In this document: positions 18,429 to 25,304 of the stretch, piece after piece
Position numbering within the stretch: the first letter of the stretch is position 1
Layout: the number at the start of each line of letters is the position of its first letter
NCBI GenBank assembly: GCA_039944855.1
Contig: JBDUXZ010000024.1
Span: 62,001-126,000, forward strand
DNA: 64,000 nt
Direction of reading: 5' to 3'
Origin: Rhodothermales bacterium
GTDB lineage: Bacteria; Bacteroidota; Rhodothermia; Rhodothermales; JANQRZ01
The notes under the pieces: model-generated
What the model saw: the letters and a program-made list of their open reading frames with translations, nothing else
What the model was told of the DNA's origin: nothing
The model's database searches: none
Made by a program: the position numbers and the translations under genes

Positions 18429-18935
18429 ATGCCTGCCCGGATGCGCCCCCGCTTCGAGTTCGTCGCCCCGTGCCCGCCGGCGCAGGCGGCGGAGCGTCTG
18501 CGCGAAGCGCTCGGCCGGCCCGAGGCGTGGTGCCGGGGGAATGTCTACCGCGGCCACGCCGTGTTCTACGTCCCCGCCGCCGAGGAGCGCGTCTGGTCCC
18601 CGTTCCTCTCGCTCGACTTCGACGGCGTCCACGAGCAGACGCGGGTGCGGGGGCTCTACGGCCCGAAGCCCGCGACGTGGAGCCTGTTCATCGCGGGCTA
18701 CGCCATCTGCGGGTGCCTCGCCCTCTTCGCCCTCGTCTACGGCTGGGCGCAGTGGTCGATCGATCAGACGCCGTGGGCGTTCGCCGTGCTGCCCGCCTCT
18801 GCCCTCGGCGCGCTCGGTGTCTACGGCCTCGCCCGCTATGGGCAGTGGCGCGGCCGGGCGCAGATGGAAGCCCTCCGCCAGTTCGTCGACGAGGCGGTCG
18901 GGGCGCCGGCCGAACCTGAGAGCGTGCGCGGCTAG
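18429..18935 (+). CDS. Hypothetical protein with two membrane helices
   Basis: A 168-residue protein: a soluble N-terminal domain of about 75 residues (PRFEFVAPCPPAQAAERLREALGRP), two membrane helices at about 82-103 and 113-135, and a short cytoplasmic tail with a helix RAQMEALRQFVDEAVG. No family was recognised. An internal ATG four codons in (MRPRFEF) is an equal start candidate. Its stop overlaps the end of the convergent BLUF gene by 4 nt. Confidence 0.6.
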   Translation: MPARMRPRFEFVAPCPPAQAAERLREALGRPEAWCRGNVYRGHAVFYVPAAEERVWSPFLSLDFDGVHEQTRVRGLYGPKPATWSLFIAGYAICGCLALFALVYGWAQWSIDQTPWAFAVLPASALGALGVYGLARYGQWRGRAQMEALRQFVDEAVGAPAEPESVRG

Positions 18936-19366
18936 ACCTGGTGGTCGTGGCGCTGCTCGGCGAGGCGCTCGACGTCGGCGACGGTCTCGGGGAGGGCGCG
19001 GACGGTTTCGAGCGCCATCGACCAGTGGGGGAAGAGGCGGCGCTCGCGCGTCCCTCGGGCAAGGACCTCGACATCGGTGTGACGGCGGTCTGCGTCGATC
19101 CGGTCGTAGGTAGCGCGGACGGCGGCCTCGGGGCCTTCGAGCCACTGCACGAACACGCCCGGCCCCTCGAACGGGACGAGCGTGGTCGGCGGCGGGGCTT
19201 CGGGGTCGGGCTCGGGCAGCGGGGTGGGCGGGCCGTAGAGCAGCAACCCCGTCACGCCGACGCGGGCGTTGTTGCGCATCGACGACATCAGGATGGGCAG
19301 CAGATCGCGCTCGTCGAGTTCGCGGGTGGCGCGGGAGCGGTAGAGGAGCGTGTGCAGGAGGGACAT
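18932..19366 (-). CDS. BLUF domain blue-light photoreceptor, copy 1
   Basis: A 144-residue single-domain BLUF protein, a flavin-binding blue-light sensor of the PixD/BlrB size class. Flavin-site residues are all present: Y9 in LLYRS, N32/N33 in SSMRNNARVGVTG, Q74 in FVQWLEG, and W115-x-M117 in PHWSMAL. R94/R95 and H96 (DRRHTDV) match the conserved DxRH. Unusually, about 27 residues rich in proline separate the GLLLY strand from FVQWLEG, where canonical BLUF domains have about four. There is no fused output domain, so signalling should be through a partner protein. A second copy lies 96 nt upstream in the same orientation. Confidence 0.9.
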   Translation of the reverse strand: MSLLHTLLYRSRATRELDERDLLPILMSSMRNNARVGVTGLLLYGPPTPLPEPDPEAPPPTTLVPFEGPGVFVQWLEGPEAAVRATYDRIDADRRHTDVEVLARGTRERRLFPHWSMALETVRALPETVADVERLAEQRHDHQV

Positions 19367-19462
19367 GCGAAGAGGGCGCTAGCGAGGGGGACCGCAAGGT
19401 AACGGTGTCGCACCTCTTCGGGCTCCCCACCGCACCGACGACGTTCCACGGGTATCGGTGGG

Positions 19463-19900
19463 CTACGGGGTGGGCTGGTGGCGGGCCGCGGCGAGGCGTG
19501 CGATCGCGTCGGCGGAGGAGGGGAGAGCCCCGCTCGGCTCCAGGGCCATCGCCCAGTGAGGGAAGAGCCGGTGCGTGCTCGTGCCGGTCCCGAGGAGGAC
19601 GAGGTCCGTGTGGCGGGTGTCGTGGGCGATGCGGTCGAAGTAGAGCGCCCGCACTGCGTCCTCGGGCCCTTCGAGCCATTGGACGAACGCCCCCGGCCCG
19701 TCGAAGGGGACGACGCTCGTGAGCATCGTCAGGTCCGCCTCGGCGTTGGGGAGCGACTCCTTCGGGCCGTAGAGCAGGACCCCGGTGATGCCGTCGCGCG
19801 CGTTGTTGCGCAGCGAAATCATGAGGAGGCGGAGGAGGTCGTGCGCGTCGAGGACTCGGACGGAATGGGACCTGTAGAGGAGCGTGAAGAGGTCCGGCAT
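19463..19900 (-). CDS. BLUF domain blue-light photoreceptor, copy 2
   Basis: A 145-residue BLUF paralogue with the same layout as copy 1: Y9 (LLYRS), N32/N33 (SLRNNARDGITG), Q74 (FVQWLEG), W116-x-M118 (PHWAMAL) and DTRH. It shares the long insertion between GVLLY and FVQWLEG, and both proteins have the same spacing from Y44 to Q74 although the insert sequences differ. The start at 19900 (MPDLFTLLYRS) matches copy 1 exactly; an upstream in-frame Met at 20023 would add 41 non-homologous residues. This is the upstream gene of the tandem pair, with 96 nt between the two. Confidence 0.9.
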   Translation of the reverse strand: MPDLFTLLYRSHSVRVLDAHDLLRLLMISLRNNARDGITGVLLYGPKESLPNAEADLTMLTSVVPFDGPGAFVQWLEGPEDAVRALYFDRIAHDTRHTDLVLLGTGTSTHRLFPHWAMALEPSGALPSSADAIARLAAARHQPTP

Positions 19901-20076
19901 GGGCGTCGGGTTCGGGTCTAAGCGCAAAGTACAAAAACCTTGATCGAAGGGTGTGGCAGGCTCCGGCATGCCTGCGGCGAGCCGTAGCCGGGGGCGTCTC
20001 GGTTTCTCGATCGCGAGGACCAAATAGGACGGGCAGGAGGTTAGACCTCTCCCTTCTCCCGGTTAGCCCTTCCGCC

Positions 20077-20637
20077 ATGTTCTTCAACTCCTGGGACGCG
20101 CTCGGCCGCATCCTCCTCGTCGGCACGCTGGCGTACGTCGCGCTCGTCTTCGTCCTCCGCATCTCCGGCAAGCGGACGCTCTCGAAGATGAATGCGTTCG
20201 ACTTCGTCGTCACCGTCGCCCTCGGCTCGACACTGGCCTCGACGATCCTCTCGAAAGACACGGCCCTCGCCGAAGGCGTGCTCGCGCTCGCGCTCCTCAT
20301 CGGTCTCCAGTTCTTCATCACGTGGTGCTCGGTCCGCTGGGAGTGGTTCCAAAGCCTGGTCAAGTCCGTGCCGACACTCATCTACTACCGGGGCGAGTTC
20401 CAGCAGGCGGCGATGAAGCGCGAACGTGTGACGACGGAGGAGGTCCGCTCAGCCGTGCGGAAGCATGGGAACGCGAAGATGGCCGACGTCGCCGCCGTCG
20501 TGCTCGAGAGCGACGGGTCGTTCACGGTGATGAGCGACCTGGAGAAAGGCGATGCCCACGATGCGCTGGCGAACGTGGAGGGAACCAGCGACCGACCTCA
20601 CCTCCAGCCCGGCCAGACGAAGGGGGCTGTCGCTTGA
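20077..20637 (+). CDS. DUF421 (YetF-like) membrane protein
   Basis: A 186-residue protein of the DUF421/YetF family. Three N-terminal membrane helices lie at about residues 8-28, 38-58 and 63-83. The family block RISGKRTLSKMNAFDFVVTVALGSTLAS sits between helices 1 and 2, and the cytosolic domain carries PTLIYYRGEFQQAAMKRERVTTEEVRSAVRKHG. Bacillus homologues act in the spore envelope, but the biochemical function is unknown. The ATG at 20077 gives the normal family N-terminus. A pyrimidine-rich stretch precedes the start. Confidence 0.88.
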   Translation: MFFNSWDALGRILLVGTLAYVALVFVLRISGKRTLSKMNAFDFVVTVALGSTLASTILSKDTALAEGVLALALLIGLQFFITWCSVRWEWFQSLVKSVPTLIYYRGEFQQAAMKRERVTTEEVRSAVRKHGNAKMADVAAVVLESDGSFTVMSDLEKGDAHDALANVEGTSDRPHLQPGQTKGAVA

Positions 20638-20748: not shown

Positions 20749-22971
20749 TCAGGCCAGCACCTGCCCGAAGGCGATCTCCTCGGCGGCGAGGACGAAGACG
20801 GTCGAGGGGAGCCCCGCCGTGCGCTCGCGGAAGCGGGCGTAGTAGGCCTCGAAGTCGTCCCCCTCCGTCGGGGCTGCCATGCCGAGGAAGACGAGGTCGG
20901 CGTTGGCCGAGGCCGTGCGCAGGATCTCGTCGAACGGGCGGCCCTCGGCGACGATCACGTCGAGCGCCGCGCCGGTGCGCGTCCGGGCGATGATGGGGAG
21001 GAGGCCGGCGCGCGTGGCCTCGGCGGCGGCGGCGTCCGGGGCGACGATCTTCAGGCGGATCTCGCTGCCGCGCCACGTCAGGCTCGTCGAGAGGAGGTAG
21101 GCGAGGATCAGCATAAGCCCGCCGTTCCCCTTCAGCCCGCCCCACCACACGTCGATCCGCTTGCGCTCTCCGTAGCCTCGGTCTTCGTCGTCGCGCACGA
21201 TGACGACGTTGCGGCGGGCGGAGTAAAAGTGCTCGATCATCGCGCAGTAGCGAGCGCGGAGGGCGGGGTCCTGGCTGTCGCCGAGGAGCACGGTGTTCGG
21301 CGTGAGCGAGCCGAGCCCGTACGACTCGACGAGGCGCTCGGCGCCGACGAACGGGTCGGGTGCGGCGATGACGCGGGCGAGGCCCTGCACGGCGCGCTGG
21401 GCGAGGTACTCGCGGATGTTCTTCTCCATCGCTTGCTGGCGCTCGGCCGAGACGCCGGGCGTGGTGAGCACGGTCGAGACGGTGAGGAGCGCGCGGTTGT
21501 GCGAGATGGCGCGGGCGAGGTCGATGAGGTGCCAGCGCCGCGTCGGCGCGCCGGAGAGGACGAGGAGGTGGGGCCGCCAGTTCTTCGCATCGGCCTCGTC
21601 GCGGAGCCGCATCAGCCCGGCGCGCGTGATCGCCATCCACAGCCCGCTCCGCACGTCGCCCCACGCCGACTCCAGGCTCCGCCGCTCCAGCCACACGTAG
21701 ACGCCGAGCACGAAGAGCACGGCCACGACCGTCGCCGCCGCGTTGATGAGGAACATCACGGCCACGCAGCCGAGCGCGCCGAGGAGCGAGAACGCCCAGT
21801 GGACCTGGAACGTCGGCCGGAACGACGGGCTCCGCAGGAACCGCTCGATGCCCGCCGCGATGTTGAGCACGCCGTAGGTCGTGAGGAAGAACATCGTGAG
21901 GACGGGCGCGATCAGGTTGAGGTCGCCGAAGTAGACGGCGACGAGCGCGAGCGCGAGCGTGAGGACGGTCCCGGCGCGCGGCGCGTCGTCGTCGCCGGAG
22001 CCCTTGCCGAGCCAGCCGAGCTTGCGCGGCAGCACGCCGTCGCGCGCGAGGGCCTGCAGCACGCGCGGCGCACCGAGGACCGAGCCGAGCGCGCTCGACA
22101 GCGTTGCGCCCCAGACGCCGAGCAGGATCGCGTCGCCCCAGTACGCCATCTTCCGCATGATGAGCGGGTCCGCGATCAGCGTCGCCGCGTCGGCGCGCAT
22201 CGCGAGGAGGACCGGGAGCGCCATGTAGATGAGGTAGCCCACGCCGACGGCGGCGAACGTCCCGCGCGGGATCGAGCGGCTCGGGTCGCGGAGGTCGCCC
22301 GACATGTTGACCCCGGCCATGATCCCCGTGACGGCGGGGAAGAACACGGCGAAGACGACCCAGAACGGCTCGCTCAGCCGGTCCGCCGCGCCCCACATCT
22401 CGATACTCGTCTCCTCGATCGGGCTCCCGAAGAGGAGGGAGACGAGCGAGAGCGCAATCGCGGCCATGATGAAGTACTGCGCCCGGATCGCCGTCTTCGC
22501 CGAGACGAGCGCGAGCACGGCCACCGCCACCGTCGTCACGAGCCCGACGACCTTCTCGTTCACCGCCGGGAACGCCCGCCCGACGCTCTCCGCGAAACCG
22601 ATCGTGTAGAGCGCGATCGAGAGCGCCTGCGCGAGGTAGAGCGGGATGCCGACCGCCCCGCCCGTCTCGATCCCGAGCGAGCGGCTGATCATGTAGTACG
22701 CCCCGCCCGCCCGCACCCGCTGGTCCGTCGAGATCGCCGCGATCGAGAGCGCCGTCAGAAACGTGATCGCCGTCGAGAGCGTGACGATGAGCAGCGCCCC
22801 GAGCAGGCCGACGTTGCCGACCACCCACCCGAAGCGGAGGTACATGATGACGCCGAGGATCGTCAGGATCGACGGCGTGAAGACGCCGCCGAACGTGCCG
22901 AGCCCGCCCTCTTTGCCGGGGGCGACGAGTTCGTGCGGGGGACGGAGGCGCTGACGGAGACGGCGGAGCAT
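20749..22971 (-). CDS. Cation-chloride cotransporter-like APC superfamily permease
   Basis: A 740-residue integral membrane transporter. Residues 25-455 hold about 12 hydrophobic segments. The first helix region GTFGGVFTPSILTILGVIMYLRFGWVVGN and the AGGAYYMISRSLG motif are those of the SLC12 cation-chloride cotransporter branch of the APC superfamily, which moves Na+/K+ with chloride in animals. FFPAVTGIMAGVNMSGDLRDP is a further hallmark. The C-terminal about 280 residues form a cytosolic regulatory domain (RPHLLVLSGAP, VDVWWGGLKGNGGLMLILAYLL), again matching SLC12 proteins. The substrate in bacteria is inferred; osmotic adjustment in a marine cell would fit. Confidence 0.85.
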   Translation of the reverse strand: MLRRLRQRLRPPHELVAPGKEGGLGTFGGVFTPSILTILGVIMYLRFGWVVGNVGLLGALLIVTLSTAITFLTALSIAAISTDQRVRAGGAYYMISRSLGIETGGAVGIPLYLAQALSIALYTIGFAESVGRAFPAVNEKVVGLVTTVAVAVLALVSAKTAIRAQYFIMAAIALSLVSLLFGSPIEETSIEMWGAADRLSEPFWVVFAVFFPAVTGIMAGVNMSGDLRDPSRSIPRGTFAAVGVGYLIYMALPVLLAMRADAATLIADPLIMRKMAYWGDAILLGVWGATLSSALGSVLGAPRVLQALARDGVLPRKLGWLGKGSGDDDAPRAGTVLTLALALVAVYFGDLNLIAPVLTMFFLTTYGVLNIAAGIERFLRSPSFRPTFQVHWAFSLLGALGCVAVMFLINAAATVVAVLFVLGVYVWLERRSLESAWGDVRSGLWMAITRAGLMRLRDEADAKNWRPHLLVLSGAPTRRWHLIDLARAISHNRALLTVSTVLTTPGVSAERQQAMEKNIREYLAQRAVQGLARVIAAPDPFVGAERLVESYGLGSLTPNTVLLGDSQDPALRARYCAMIEHFYSARRNVVIVRDDEDRGYGERKRIDVWWGGLKGNGGLMLILAYLLSTSLTWRGSEIRLKIVAPDAAAAEATRAGLLPIIARTRTGAALDVIVAEGRPFDEILRTASANADLVFLGMAAPTEGDDFEAYYARFRERTAGLPSTVFVLAAEEIAFGQVLA

Positions 22972-23087: not shown

Positions 23088-23606
23088 TCACTTCGGGTCG
23101 AACTTCGTCCCCGGCGTGCGCGAGGCCGCGTTCGGCTTCACGTCTTTGATGTCGGCGTTCGTGCCCGAGCCCTGCGGCATCGGCCCGGCCGCGCTGGAGT
23201 TCTCCTGCACCACGCCGGGGTCGTCGGCTGTTCCGACGCGCGGGTTCGGGACGCCGCTCCGGCCGAGCGCCCGCCCAGCACTCGCGAGCAGGCCCCCGAG
23301 CCGTTCGATCTTCGACGTGACGGCGTCGTCGTCGGCCTGGTCGGCGGCCTCGGTCGTCTGCTCACCGAGGCGTTCGAGGATGCGGCCCACCTCGCCGCCG
23401 TCGATGGGTTTGGCCGCGAGGGCGGCGCGCAGCTCGCCGAGGACGGTGGCGACGCCGTTCATCCCGTCGTGGTCGGCGAGGGTGTCGAGCCAGCGTTCGA
23501 TCGTGGAGCGGGCGGCGGCGGGGGAGAGCGCGGCCACACCGCCGTCGAGGACGCCGAGGGTGGCGTCGAGTTGCTGGCGGGCGTCGGTGGTCTGGTTCGA
23601 ATTCAT
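23088..23606 (-). CDS. Helical hypothetical protein, paralogue 1 of 3
   Basis: A 172-residue soluble protein, last gene of a four-gene operon. Its first about 115 residues match the two genes upstream: a helix with Trp (STIERWLDTLADHDGMNGVATVLGELRAAL), the line GGEVGRILERLGEQTTEAADQAD, and KIERLGGLLASAGRALG. The C-terminal 55 residues are disordered and polar (NPRVGTADDPGVVQENS...TPGTKFDPK). No enzyme motif, signal peptide or membrane segment was seen. The shared pattern is ...W...L....l......lgeLk..L.....dG..ig.iL.rLG.qT..AA..A.......k.erLG.lL..aG. The family is not known to me. Confidence 0.75.
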   Translation of the reverse strand: MNSNQTTDARQQLDATLGVLDGGVAALSPAAARSTIERWLDTLADHDGMNGVATVLGELRAALAAKPIDGGEVGRILERLGEQTTEAADQADDDAVTSKIERLGGLLASAGRALGRSGVPNPRVGTADDPGVVQENSSAAGPMPQGSGTNADIKDVKPNAASRTPGTKFDPK

Positions 23607-23678: not shown

Positions 23679-24164
23679 CTACGAGTCGCGCTCGTCGGGA
23701 TCGGGCGCGAGGCCCTTCTCGGTCTGCGAGACGGGCGCGCTCGCCGGGCCGTCGAGGACGTTTTGCTGATGGGCCTCGACGGGTTCGGCGCCGAGCGTCG
23801 TCCCCGCGCGGGAGAGGAGGGTGCCGAGGCGTTCGAGCTTCGGCGAGAGGCGGGCGTCGTCGGCGTCGGCCGCCGCGCTCGTGGTCTGCTCGCCGAGGCG
23901 GAGGAGGAGGCTGCCGATGGCGGGACCGTCGAGCCGATCGGATTGGAGTTCATCCTTGAGCTCAGCGAGGAGGTTGGCGATCGCGTGGAGGTCGTCGCGC
24001 TCGGCGTTTTTTAGCGTGCCGTACCACGTGTCGATCACGCCGATCGCGGTGCCCGGAGCGAGCGAGGTGACGCCGGCTTCGAGCGCGGCCGACGTGTTCT
24101 CGAGGTCGCGCTGGTACGTGTCGTCGAGGCCGGAGCCGCCGGTGATGTCGGAGGAAGTAAGCAT
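23679..24164 (-). CDS. Helical hypothetical protein, paralogue 2 of 3
   Basis: A 161-residue protein with the same helical core as its neighbours: AIGVIDTWYGTLKNAERDDLHAIANLLAELKDEL, then GPAIGSLLLRLGEQTTSAAADADDARLSPKLERLG and LLSRAGTTLG. A disordered tail ends APDPDERDS. The start at 24164 (MLTSSDITGG) is chosen because the longer reading upstream is arginine-rich antisense-like sequence running into the preceding gene. The leader is pyrimidine-rich without a Shine-Dalgarno sequence. It is cotranscribed with the EcsC gene and the two other paralogues. Confidence 0.75.
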   Translation of the reverse strand: MLTSSDITGGSGLDDTYQRDLENTSAALEAGVTSLAPGTAIGVIDTWYGTLKNAERDDLHAIANLLAELKDELQSDRLDGPAIGSLLLRLGEQTTSAAADADDARLSPKLERLGTLLSRAGTTLGAEPVEAHQQNVLDGPASAPVSQTEKGLAPDPDERDS

Positions 24165-24219
24165 GAGAGAGGGGAAAGGAGAGGAGGGGAATAGAGAAGA
24201 GAGGAGAAGCAGGGAGCGG

Positions 24220-24597
24220 TCAGGCGTCGGCGGCGCGGGGGCCGCGGAGGGCGTGGCCGGCGTGGAGGAGCACGTTCCCGAGCCGCTCGACGGCCTTGCC
24301 GATCTCCTCGCGCTCGGCCTCCTTCGCCGCCGCGACCGTCTGCTTGCCGAGCCGGGCGAGGATCTCACCGATGGCGTCGCCGTCGAGGTCGGGGCCGAGC
24401 AAGCTGGCCTTCAGCTCCCCGAGCCCGTTGGCGATCTCGTTGAGGTCGGCACGGTCGGACTCGTCGAGGATGCGGTGCCAGTCGTCGATCCGGTTGACGG
24501 ATTTGGAGAGGGAGAACTGGTCGAGGCCGCGTTCGAGGTCGTCGATCGTAGCGTTGAGTTCGGCGGCTTGCACGCCTTCGGGGAGGGACTCGATCAT
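24220..24597 (-). CDS. Helical hypothetical protein, paralogue 3 of 3
   Basis: A 125-residue protein and the most compact member of the trio, containing only the shared core: VNRIDDWHRILDESDRADLNEIANGLGELKASLLG, GDAIGEILARLGKQTVAAAKEAEREEIGKAVERLGNVLLHAGHALRG. It lacks the disordered C-terminal tail of the other two copies. It begins 44 nt after the EcsC gene stop in the same operon. Function unknown. Conservation of G, L and T in LGxQT across all three copies marks the most constrained segment. Confidence 0.75.
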   Translation of the reverse strand: MIESLPEGVQAAELNATIDDLERGLDQFSLSKSVNRIDDWHRILDESDRADLNEIANGLGELKASLLGPDLDGDAIGEILARLGKQTVAAAKEAEREEIGKAVERLGNVLLHAGHALRGPRAADA

Positions 24598-24641: not shown

Positions 24642-25304
24642 TCAGCCGGCCCCGTCGCCGGAGGCCAGCTCAGCGGGGGTGAGGAGGGGCTTGCCATCGG
24701 TCAGGAACGTCTGGCGGGCGGCCTCGGCCACCTTCCCCGTCGAGTAGGCGTCCGACGCCCCGCCGATGAACCCGCCGAGGATGGGGAGGCTGCGCCGCGG
24801 GAGCCGGCTCGTGACGACCTTCTTCGCCGTCCACTTCGTCGCACGCGTCGCCACGCCGACGGCGCCTTCGGCGAGGAAGCGGATGCCGCGCTCGGCGAGC
24901 TTCACGGCCGAGCGGTCGAAGACCTCCGCTGCCTCGTCGCTCTCCTGCAGGTGCTCGGCGTCGGACCCGCTGACGAGGCAGGCAATCGAGCGCTTGCGGA
25001 CCTCGTCGTCGTGGATGTCGTGGCCGCCCATGAACGCCGTCGCGGCGCAGAGGTGGAGTTGGAGCGTCGCCACGCCGATGATGTTGGCGGGGAGCGTGAT
25101 GGGGAGCGTGATGAACCCGCCGAGCCCGAACACGAAGCCGGTGCTGCCGCAGAGGAGGGTGTACGTGCCCGTCATCTCTTCGGCGCGTTCGTGGAGCGTG
25201 CCGGGGCCGGCGAGGAAGCGGGCGGCGGTTTCGGCGGGCGTTCCGAGGACGGGGAGGCCGTCGACGGCGCGGTTATAGAGCGGCTTGAGGAGGAGTGATT
25301 TCAT
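24642..25304 (-). CDS. EcsC family protein
   Basis: A 220-residue protein of the EcsC family, named for the third gene of the Bacillus Ecs transporter locus; the molecular role is unresolved. A hydrophobic hairpin region at about residues 45-90 (TLLCGSTGFVFGLGGFITLPITLPANIIGVATLQ) is the conserved block. The C-terminal glycine-rich segment LPILGGFIGGASDAYSTGKVAEAARQTF is also typical. It is the first gene of an operon with three paralogous small helical proteins, driven by a candidate ECF-like promoter at 25339-25363. No ATP-binding EcsA or membrane EcsB gene is nearby. Confidence 0.82.
   Translation of the reverse strand: MKSLLLKPLYNRAVDGLPVLGTPAETAARFLAGPGTLHERAEEMTGTYTLLCGSTGFVFGLGGFITLPITLPANIIGVATLQLHLCAATAFMGGHDIHDDEVRKRSIACLVSGSDAEHLQESDEAAEVFDRSAVKLAERGIRFLAEGAVGVATRATKWTAKKVVTSRLPRRSLPILGGFIGGASDAYSTGKVAEAARQTFLTDGKPLLTPAELASGDGAG

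Follow-up and report, generated by a model that had tools for sequence, protein, structure and literature searches.

BLUF domains find use in optogenetics, and the route by which the signal of the hydrogen-bond switch reaches the surface of the BLUF protein is still debated. The Gln/Trp/Met triad of this switch has been reviewed (PMC4630285). Short BLUF proteins act through partners, the precedent being PixD-PixE (PMC5899715, PMC6695109). The short BLUFs PixD, BlrB, and Tll0078 have two C-terminal helices, alpha3-alpha4 (PMC6695109), and C-terminal truncation of PixD abolishes the stable dimer as well as the complex with PixE (PMC5899715).

A sequence-only reading of the window, i.e., the stretch of 64,000 nucleotides from a Rhodothermales bacterium analyzed here, had reported two adjacent BLUF genes at positions 18932 to 19900 with complete flavin-site residues and no output domain. 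All three claims were confirmed, and both open reading frames were found on the minus strand. The features of the locus are the following:

18429-18935 (+), 168-aa protein of no known family, probably a membrane protein; its stop codon overlaps that of the convergent BLUF-B by 4 bp
18932-19366 (−), BLUF-B, downstream copy, 144 aa
19145-19231 (−), extended beta2-beta3 hairpin of BLUF-B (codons 46-74), rich in Pro and Glu
19367-19462 (no strand), gap between BLUF-A and BLUF-B, 96 bp, from the sequence
19463-19900 (−), BLUF-A, upstream and faster-diverging copy, 145 aa
19679-19765 (−), extended beta2-beta3 hairpin of BLUF-A (codons 46-74), following beta2 Tyr44-Gly45 and running through the switching Gln74
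19901-20076 (no strand), intergenic region between BLUF-A and the divergent yetF; predicted promoter region, from the gene layout
20077-20637 (+), yetF (YetF by Pfam)
20749-22971 (−), homologue of SLC12-type cation-chloride cotransporters, with Pfam amino-acid permease and SLC12 domains

Both proteins matched the Pfam BLUF family (PF04940, curated cut-off 25 bits), BLUF-B with 89.2 bits (E 2e-25) and BLUF-A with 79.1 bits (E 2.7e-22), and the Pfam search returned no other domain and thus no output or effector domain for either. A sequence search of the PDB matched each copy to about 20 BLUF chains, and AppA, PixD, Tll0078, BlrB, and photoactivated cyclases were matched by both. With a single BLUF domain, no effector, and 144 and 145 residues, the proteins are short BLUFs, and the pair adds a new member to this class. 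The GC contents at the three codon positions were 0.71/0.48/0.94 and 0.77/0.48/0.92, and the pN/pS ratio between BLUF-A and BLUF-B was 0.64; judged by these values, both are real genes under constraint. The 96-bp gap is compatible with co-transcription, and the layout makes the region 19901-20076 a probable promoter region common to BLUF-A and yetF. A consensus scan of the BLUF locus for promoters and terminators gave nothing above chance, and a scan for RNA families was also empty.

Both copies carry Tyr9, Asn32/Asn33, Gln74, and an intact Trp-x-Met motif (Trp115/116, Met117/118), and in an alignment of 30 BLUFs Y9, N33, Q74, and M117 were invariant. A natural variant of the switch-side Trp was seen in G317, a genome of the same family, whose single BLUF (L067, 9573-10031) has Gln at this position (RQFAGQAMGF). 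The AlphaFold2 (AF2) models, with mean pLDDT values of 83.5 for BLUF-B and 78.8 for BLUF-A, showed the ferredoxin-like BLUF fold (beta-alpha-beta-beta-alpha-beta-beta) in both cases, and the best Foldseek matches of the BLUF-B model were Tll0078, PixD, AppA, and BlrB. As modeled, the fold and active site of BLUF-A and BLUF-B are unremarkable, apart from an unusually long loop beside the switching Gln.

This loop had gone unmentioned in the sequence-only reading. In both copies the spacing from the beta2-Tyr (Tyr44) to Gln74 is 29 residues, compared to 6 in canonical BLUFs, which amounts to an extension of 23 residues. The canonical spacing was found in 58 of 79 aligned BLUFs; of the remaining rows, the two with values below 6 are incomplete. 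In the PDB alignments, AppA and a photoactivated cyclase showed the same 6 residues. The short beta2-beta3 turn of 6 residues, which is usual in known structures and no requirement for membership, is thus present in neither window copy. Spacings of 11 to 21 residues occurred in 17 BLUFs of family f11 from the same order. Seven f11 BLUFs that stand alone resemble the window pair in having the long hairpin, an LPx[TS] tail, and, in most cases, a PG-x-F-V-Q-W segment; a tree of 32 rows grouped them with the pair, albeit with weak support (86/70). Residues 46-70 form a low-confidence loop in both AF2 models, so the added stretch is probably flexible, and any role given to it is a guess for the same reason. 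About 27 residues remain after Met117, for which the two models predicted one helix (residues 129-141 and 130-140) in place of the alpha3-alpha4 cap that is usual in studied short BLUFs. Within the phylum sample, the PDB, plasmids, and the few proteobacterial loci used for comparison, the extended hairpin makes this group a modest structural variant of the short BLUF photoreceptors. In the papers searched we came across no account of such an extension next to the switching Gln, although this does not prove that none exists.

The two copies are 58% identical, and they were sisters in trees of 74 rows (support 99/87) and 32 rows (support 99/96). Since they are each other's closest relatives, the pair represents, as judged from these trees, a lineage-specific tandem duplication. 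A search of the whole host genome yielded these two BLUF genes only; their adjacency is therefore not due to chance but to duplication. In the 74-row tree the terminal branch of BLUF-A (0.49) was longer than that of BLUF-B (0.15), i.e., BLUF-A diverged about three times faster, and from this asymmetry one copy could be drifting. The sequence-only reading had made its interpretation hinge on conservation of the pair in relatives, and this was not observed. A pair of the window type was present in one genome only, and of the genomes of the same family, G316 carries a different, canonical BLUF pair unrelated to that of the window and G317 a single BLUF. With the window copies being mutual nearest relatives, the window pair is therefore not a conserved unit.

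Further adjacent BLUF genes were found in G254, G096, G325, G326, and G327, and in G324 with one gene in between. This intervening gene (L077, 9660-10262, minus strand) belongs to the pyridoxamine 5′-phosphate oxidase family (Pfam PNPOx_N), which is of the flavin-binding type. In the tree, the pairs of G316, G096, f11, and the window were separate events, and G254 contains two unrelated BLUFs that adjoin each other. By this topology the order has seen at least five separate origins of side-by-side BLUF genes. One ancestral duplication behind all pairs was considered and rejected, as it is without support in the tree. Among genomes with at least two BLUFs, the genes were paired in 8 of 14 within the order, compared to 1 of 9 in the remainder of the phylum sample, and as a gene pair alone BLUF-A/BLUF-B is ordinary. 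The statement of the sequence-only reading that little is known about BLUFs in this lineage holds for the literature, where our search found no paper pairing BLUF with Rhodothermaeota, but not for the genomes: 35 of the 296 sampled from the phylum encode BLUF, which is therefore not exotic there. Outside this sample, a profile built from the two sequences retrieved only five distant proteobacterial BLUFs from a genome-wide named collection, and a plasmid search 12 distant BLUFs.

Downstream of the pair and convergent to BLUF-B lies the gene for the 168-aa protein, and beyond it come those for MutS and a Cu/Zn superoxide dismutase. On the upstream side, yetF is divergent from BLUF-A, with the gene for the SLC12-type transporter behind it. 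A PixE-like response regulator was not found near the pair, the neighbors being MutS, the 168-aa protein, YetF, and the SLC12 transporter. As none of these four is located near BLUFs in relatives, none is proposed as a partner. Within the family the 168-aa protein has a relative only in G316 (62% identity), in another setting. When the open reading frames around about 39 BLUF loci were compared all against all, the window shared only the BLUFs and an unrelated long protein of secreted type, and of the conserved neighbors that the sequence-only reading had suggested looking for, none emerged: no gene adjoining the pair is also conserved beside BLUFs elsewhere. A neighbor common to all BLUF pairs did not emerge either, the G316 pair lying by TerB and AbgT genes and the G325 pair by genes for trehalose synthesis. 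The latter encode trehalose-6-phosphate synthase and phosphatase (L080, 4641-6989) and are matched in the G327 locus L086. Elsewhere in the window, three small paralogous proteins with 37% to 42% identity are encoded in tandem on the minus strand (23088-23606, 23679-24173, and 24220-24597); they had no Pfam match and are adjoined by an EcsC-like protein (24642-25304, below the Pfam cut-off). The host genome also encodes rhodopsin and proteins of the photolyase/cryptochrome family, and therefore the host very likely lives in a sunlit habitat.

Building on the gene identity, residues, duplication, constraint, hairpin length, and modeled fold described above, we consider it likely that BLUF-A and BLUF-B are two single-domain blue-light receptors, duplicated in tandem, that act by contacting another protein in a light-dependent manner, with the hairpin lengthened and the cap reduced to one helix. 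According to the intact residues and established BLUF chemistry, each copy would hold FAD between its two core helices, and blue light would rearrange the hydrogen-bond network of Tyr9, Gln74, and Trp/Met, leading to a state red-shifted by about 10 nm. Because an output domain is absent, signaling would proceed through a separate protein, by analogy to PixD and BlsA. The window proteins are without part of the PixD-type cap and may therefore use another interface, which the long hairpin loop rather than the C-terminal cap would likely shape, be it for oligomerization or partner binding. The two copies would probably assemble into homo- or heterodimers whose kinetics differ. The rhodopsin and photolyase-family genes of the host agree with this reading; against it count that no neighboring gene is conserved with the pair and that one of the unequally diverged copies could be drifting.

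Why two copies are retained can be seen differently. The sequence-only reading had thought of two sensors of different sensitivity or of heterodimers feeding one partner, and a model in which the copies differ in sensitivity or kinetics, or form an obligate heterodimer, is possible, although we lean against it. It agrees with the presence of all switch residues in two complete copies under constraint and with the roughly threefold faster divergence of BLUF-A, as well as with the several short BLUFs of Acinetobacter nosocomialis that cover different temperature ranges (PMC9020721) and with a PixD response that depends on excitation of two subunits (PMC5899715). Duplication alone, however, explains the pair; it is lineage-specific, and the BLUF pairs that recur in the order arose independently and share no common neighbor. 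The unequal branch lengths and the confinement of the pair to one genome could also mean that one copy no longer senses light and is kept as a constitutive partner or dimerization subunit, or that the duplicate is redundant. We regard this as unlikely, since all switch residues have been preserved in the two copies, pN/pS is below 1, and the duplicate, at 58% identity, has existed too long to be a mere transient.

A different question is whether the BLUFs of this group act on two proteins encoded near the f11 BLUFs. One is X, a rare GT4-type glycosyltransferase of about 550 aa, and the other is Y, a divergent nucleotidyltransferase resembling MurU; in this scenario light would control sugar metabolism by adjusting the synthesis of cell-surface glycans. 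A photolyase had also been considered as the conserved neighbor of the f11 BLUFs and was rejected, the neighbor being the glycosyltransferase. The loci of X are the following:

L077, L082, L086, L088, L090, and L104, X next to BLUF, mostly together with Y
L134 in the window genome (G000), contig C3, 121905-123527, X and Y together; the BLUF pair is on contig C24

Within the order, 7 of 114 genomes carry X, and no sampled genome from the rest of the phylum does. In six of the seven carriers, which belong to two different families, a BLUF gene is at most about 1 kb away from X; one of these six is G337, which is from a family other than f11 and has a canonical BLUF. In f11 all six BLUF genomes have Y and five have X, whereas the three BLUF-less genomes have neither. 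The seventh carrier is the window genome, which encodes a divergent X-Y pair, while its two family-mates are without X. Against an action on X and Y speaks that X is unlinked to the window pair, that most f11 cases stem from one arrangement, leaving few independent events (f11, G337, and G000), that the window genome shares further genes with f11 (YetF), and that G325 has a BLUF pair and Y yet no X. We consider such an action improbable for the group. Because of the few independent events and the other genes shared between G000 and f11, X is treated only as the best lead to a BLUF partner, for which the co-occurrence is suggestive. A short-BLUF subfamily in which the lengthened hairpin is the signaling surface that controls the glycosyltransferase and MurU-like module by direct protein contact, placing surface-glycan synthesis under blue-light control, is a speculation to which we assign quite a low probability.

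Returning to the pair as tandem-duplicated receptors with a lengthened hairpin, the natural group to which it belongs has 5 to 23 additional residues in the strand connection that runs directly into the switching Gln, which indicates that this edge tolerates insertion. The strand edge before the Gln may be a signaling surface. The duplicated pair offers two closely related copies for a natural comparison, and the rare glycosyltransferase as a lead makes the role of single-domain BLUFs in the phylum directly testable.

Compared to known systems, the window copies resemble cyanobacterial PixD (Slr1694) and Tll0078 in the single domain, the fold, the Tyr/Asn/Gln/Trp-x-Met residues, and the lack of an output domain, but their hairpin is 23 residues longer, they have a single C-terminal helix instead of alpha3-alpha4, and, unlike with PixD, no PixE-like gene adjoins the pair. 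The best PDB sequence match of BLUF-B was the BLUF domain of AppA from Rhodobacter sphaeroides (E 3e-15), including the F-x-QWLEG segment, yet AppA is a large multidomain protein with a canonical hairpin (6 residues from Tyr to Gln). BlsA and the AnBLUFs of Acinetobacter and BlrB of Rhodobacter are likewise short, are thought to signal via protein partners, and occur as several paralogues per genome. The BLUF genes of A. nosocomialis, unlike the window pair, lie in three separate genomic contexts (PMC9020721), and no long hairpin was seen in BlrB, the match of which begins after the hairpin. The solo BLUFs of f11 (L078, L081, L083, L085, L087, L088, and L090) are single genes instead of a tandem pair and have hairpins of 14 to 21 residues compared to 29, but they share with the window copies the extended hairpin, mostly the PG-x-F-V-Q-W segment, the RLFPxW motif, and the LPx[TS]-helix tail.
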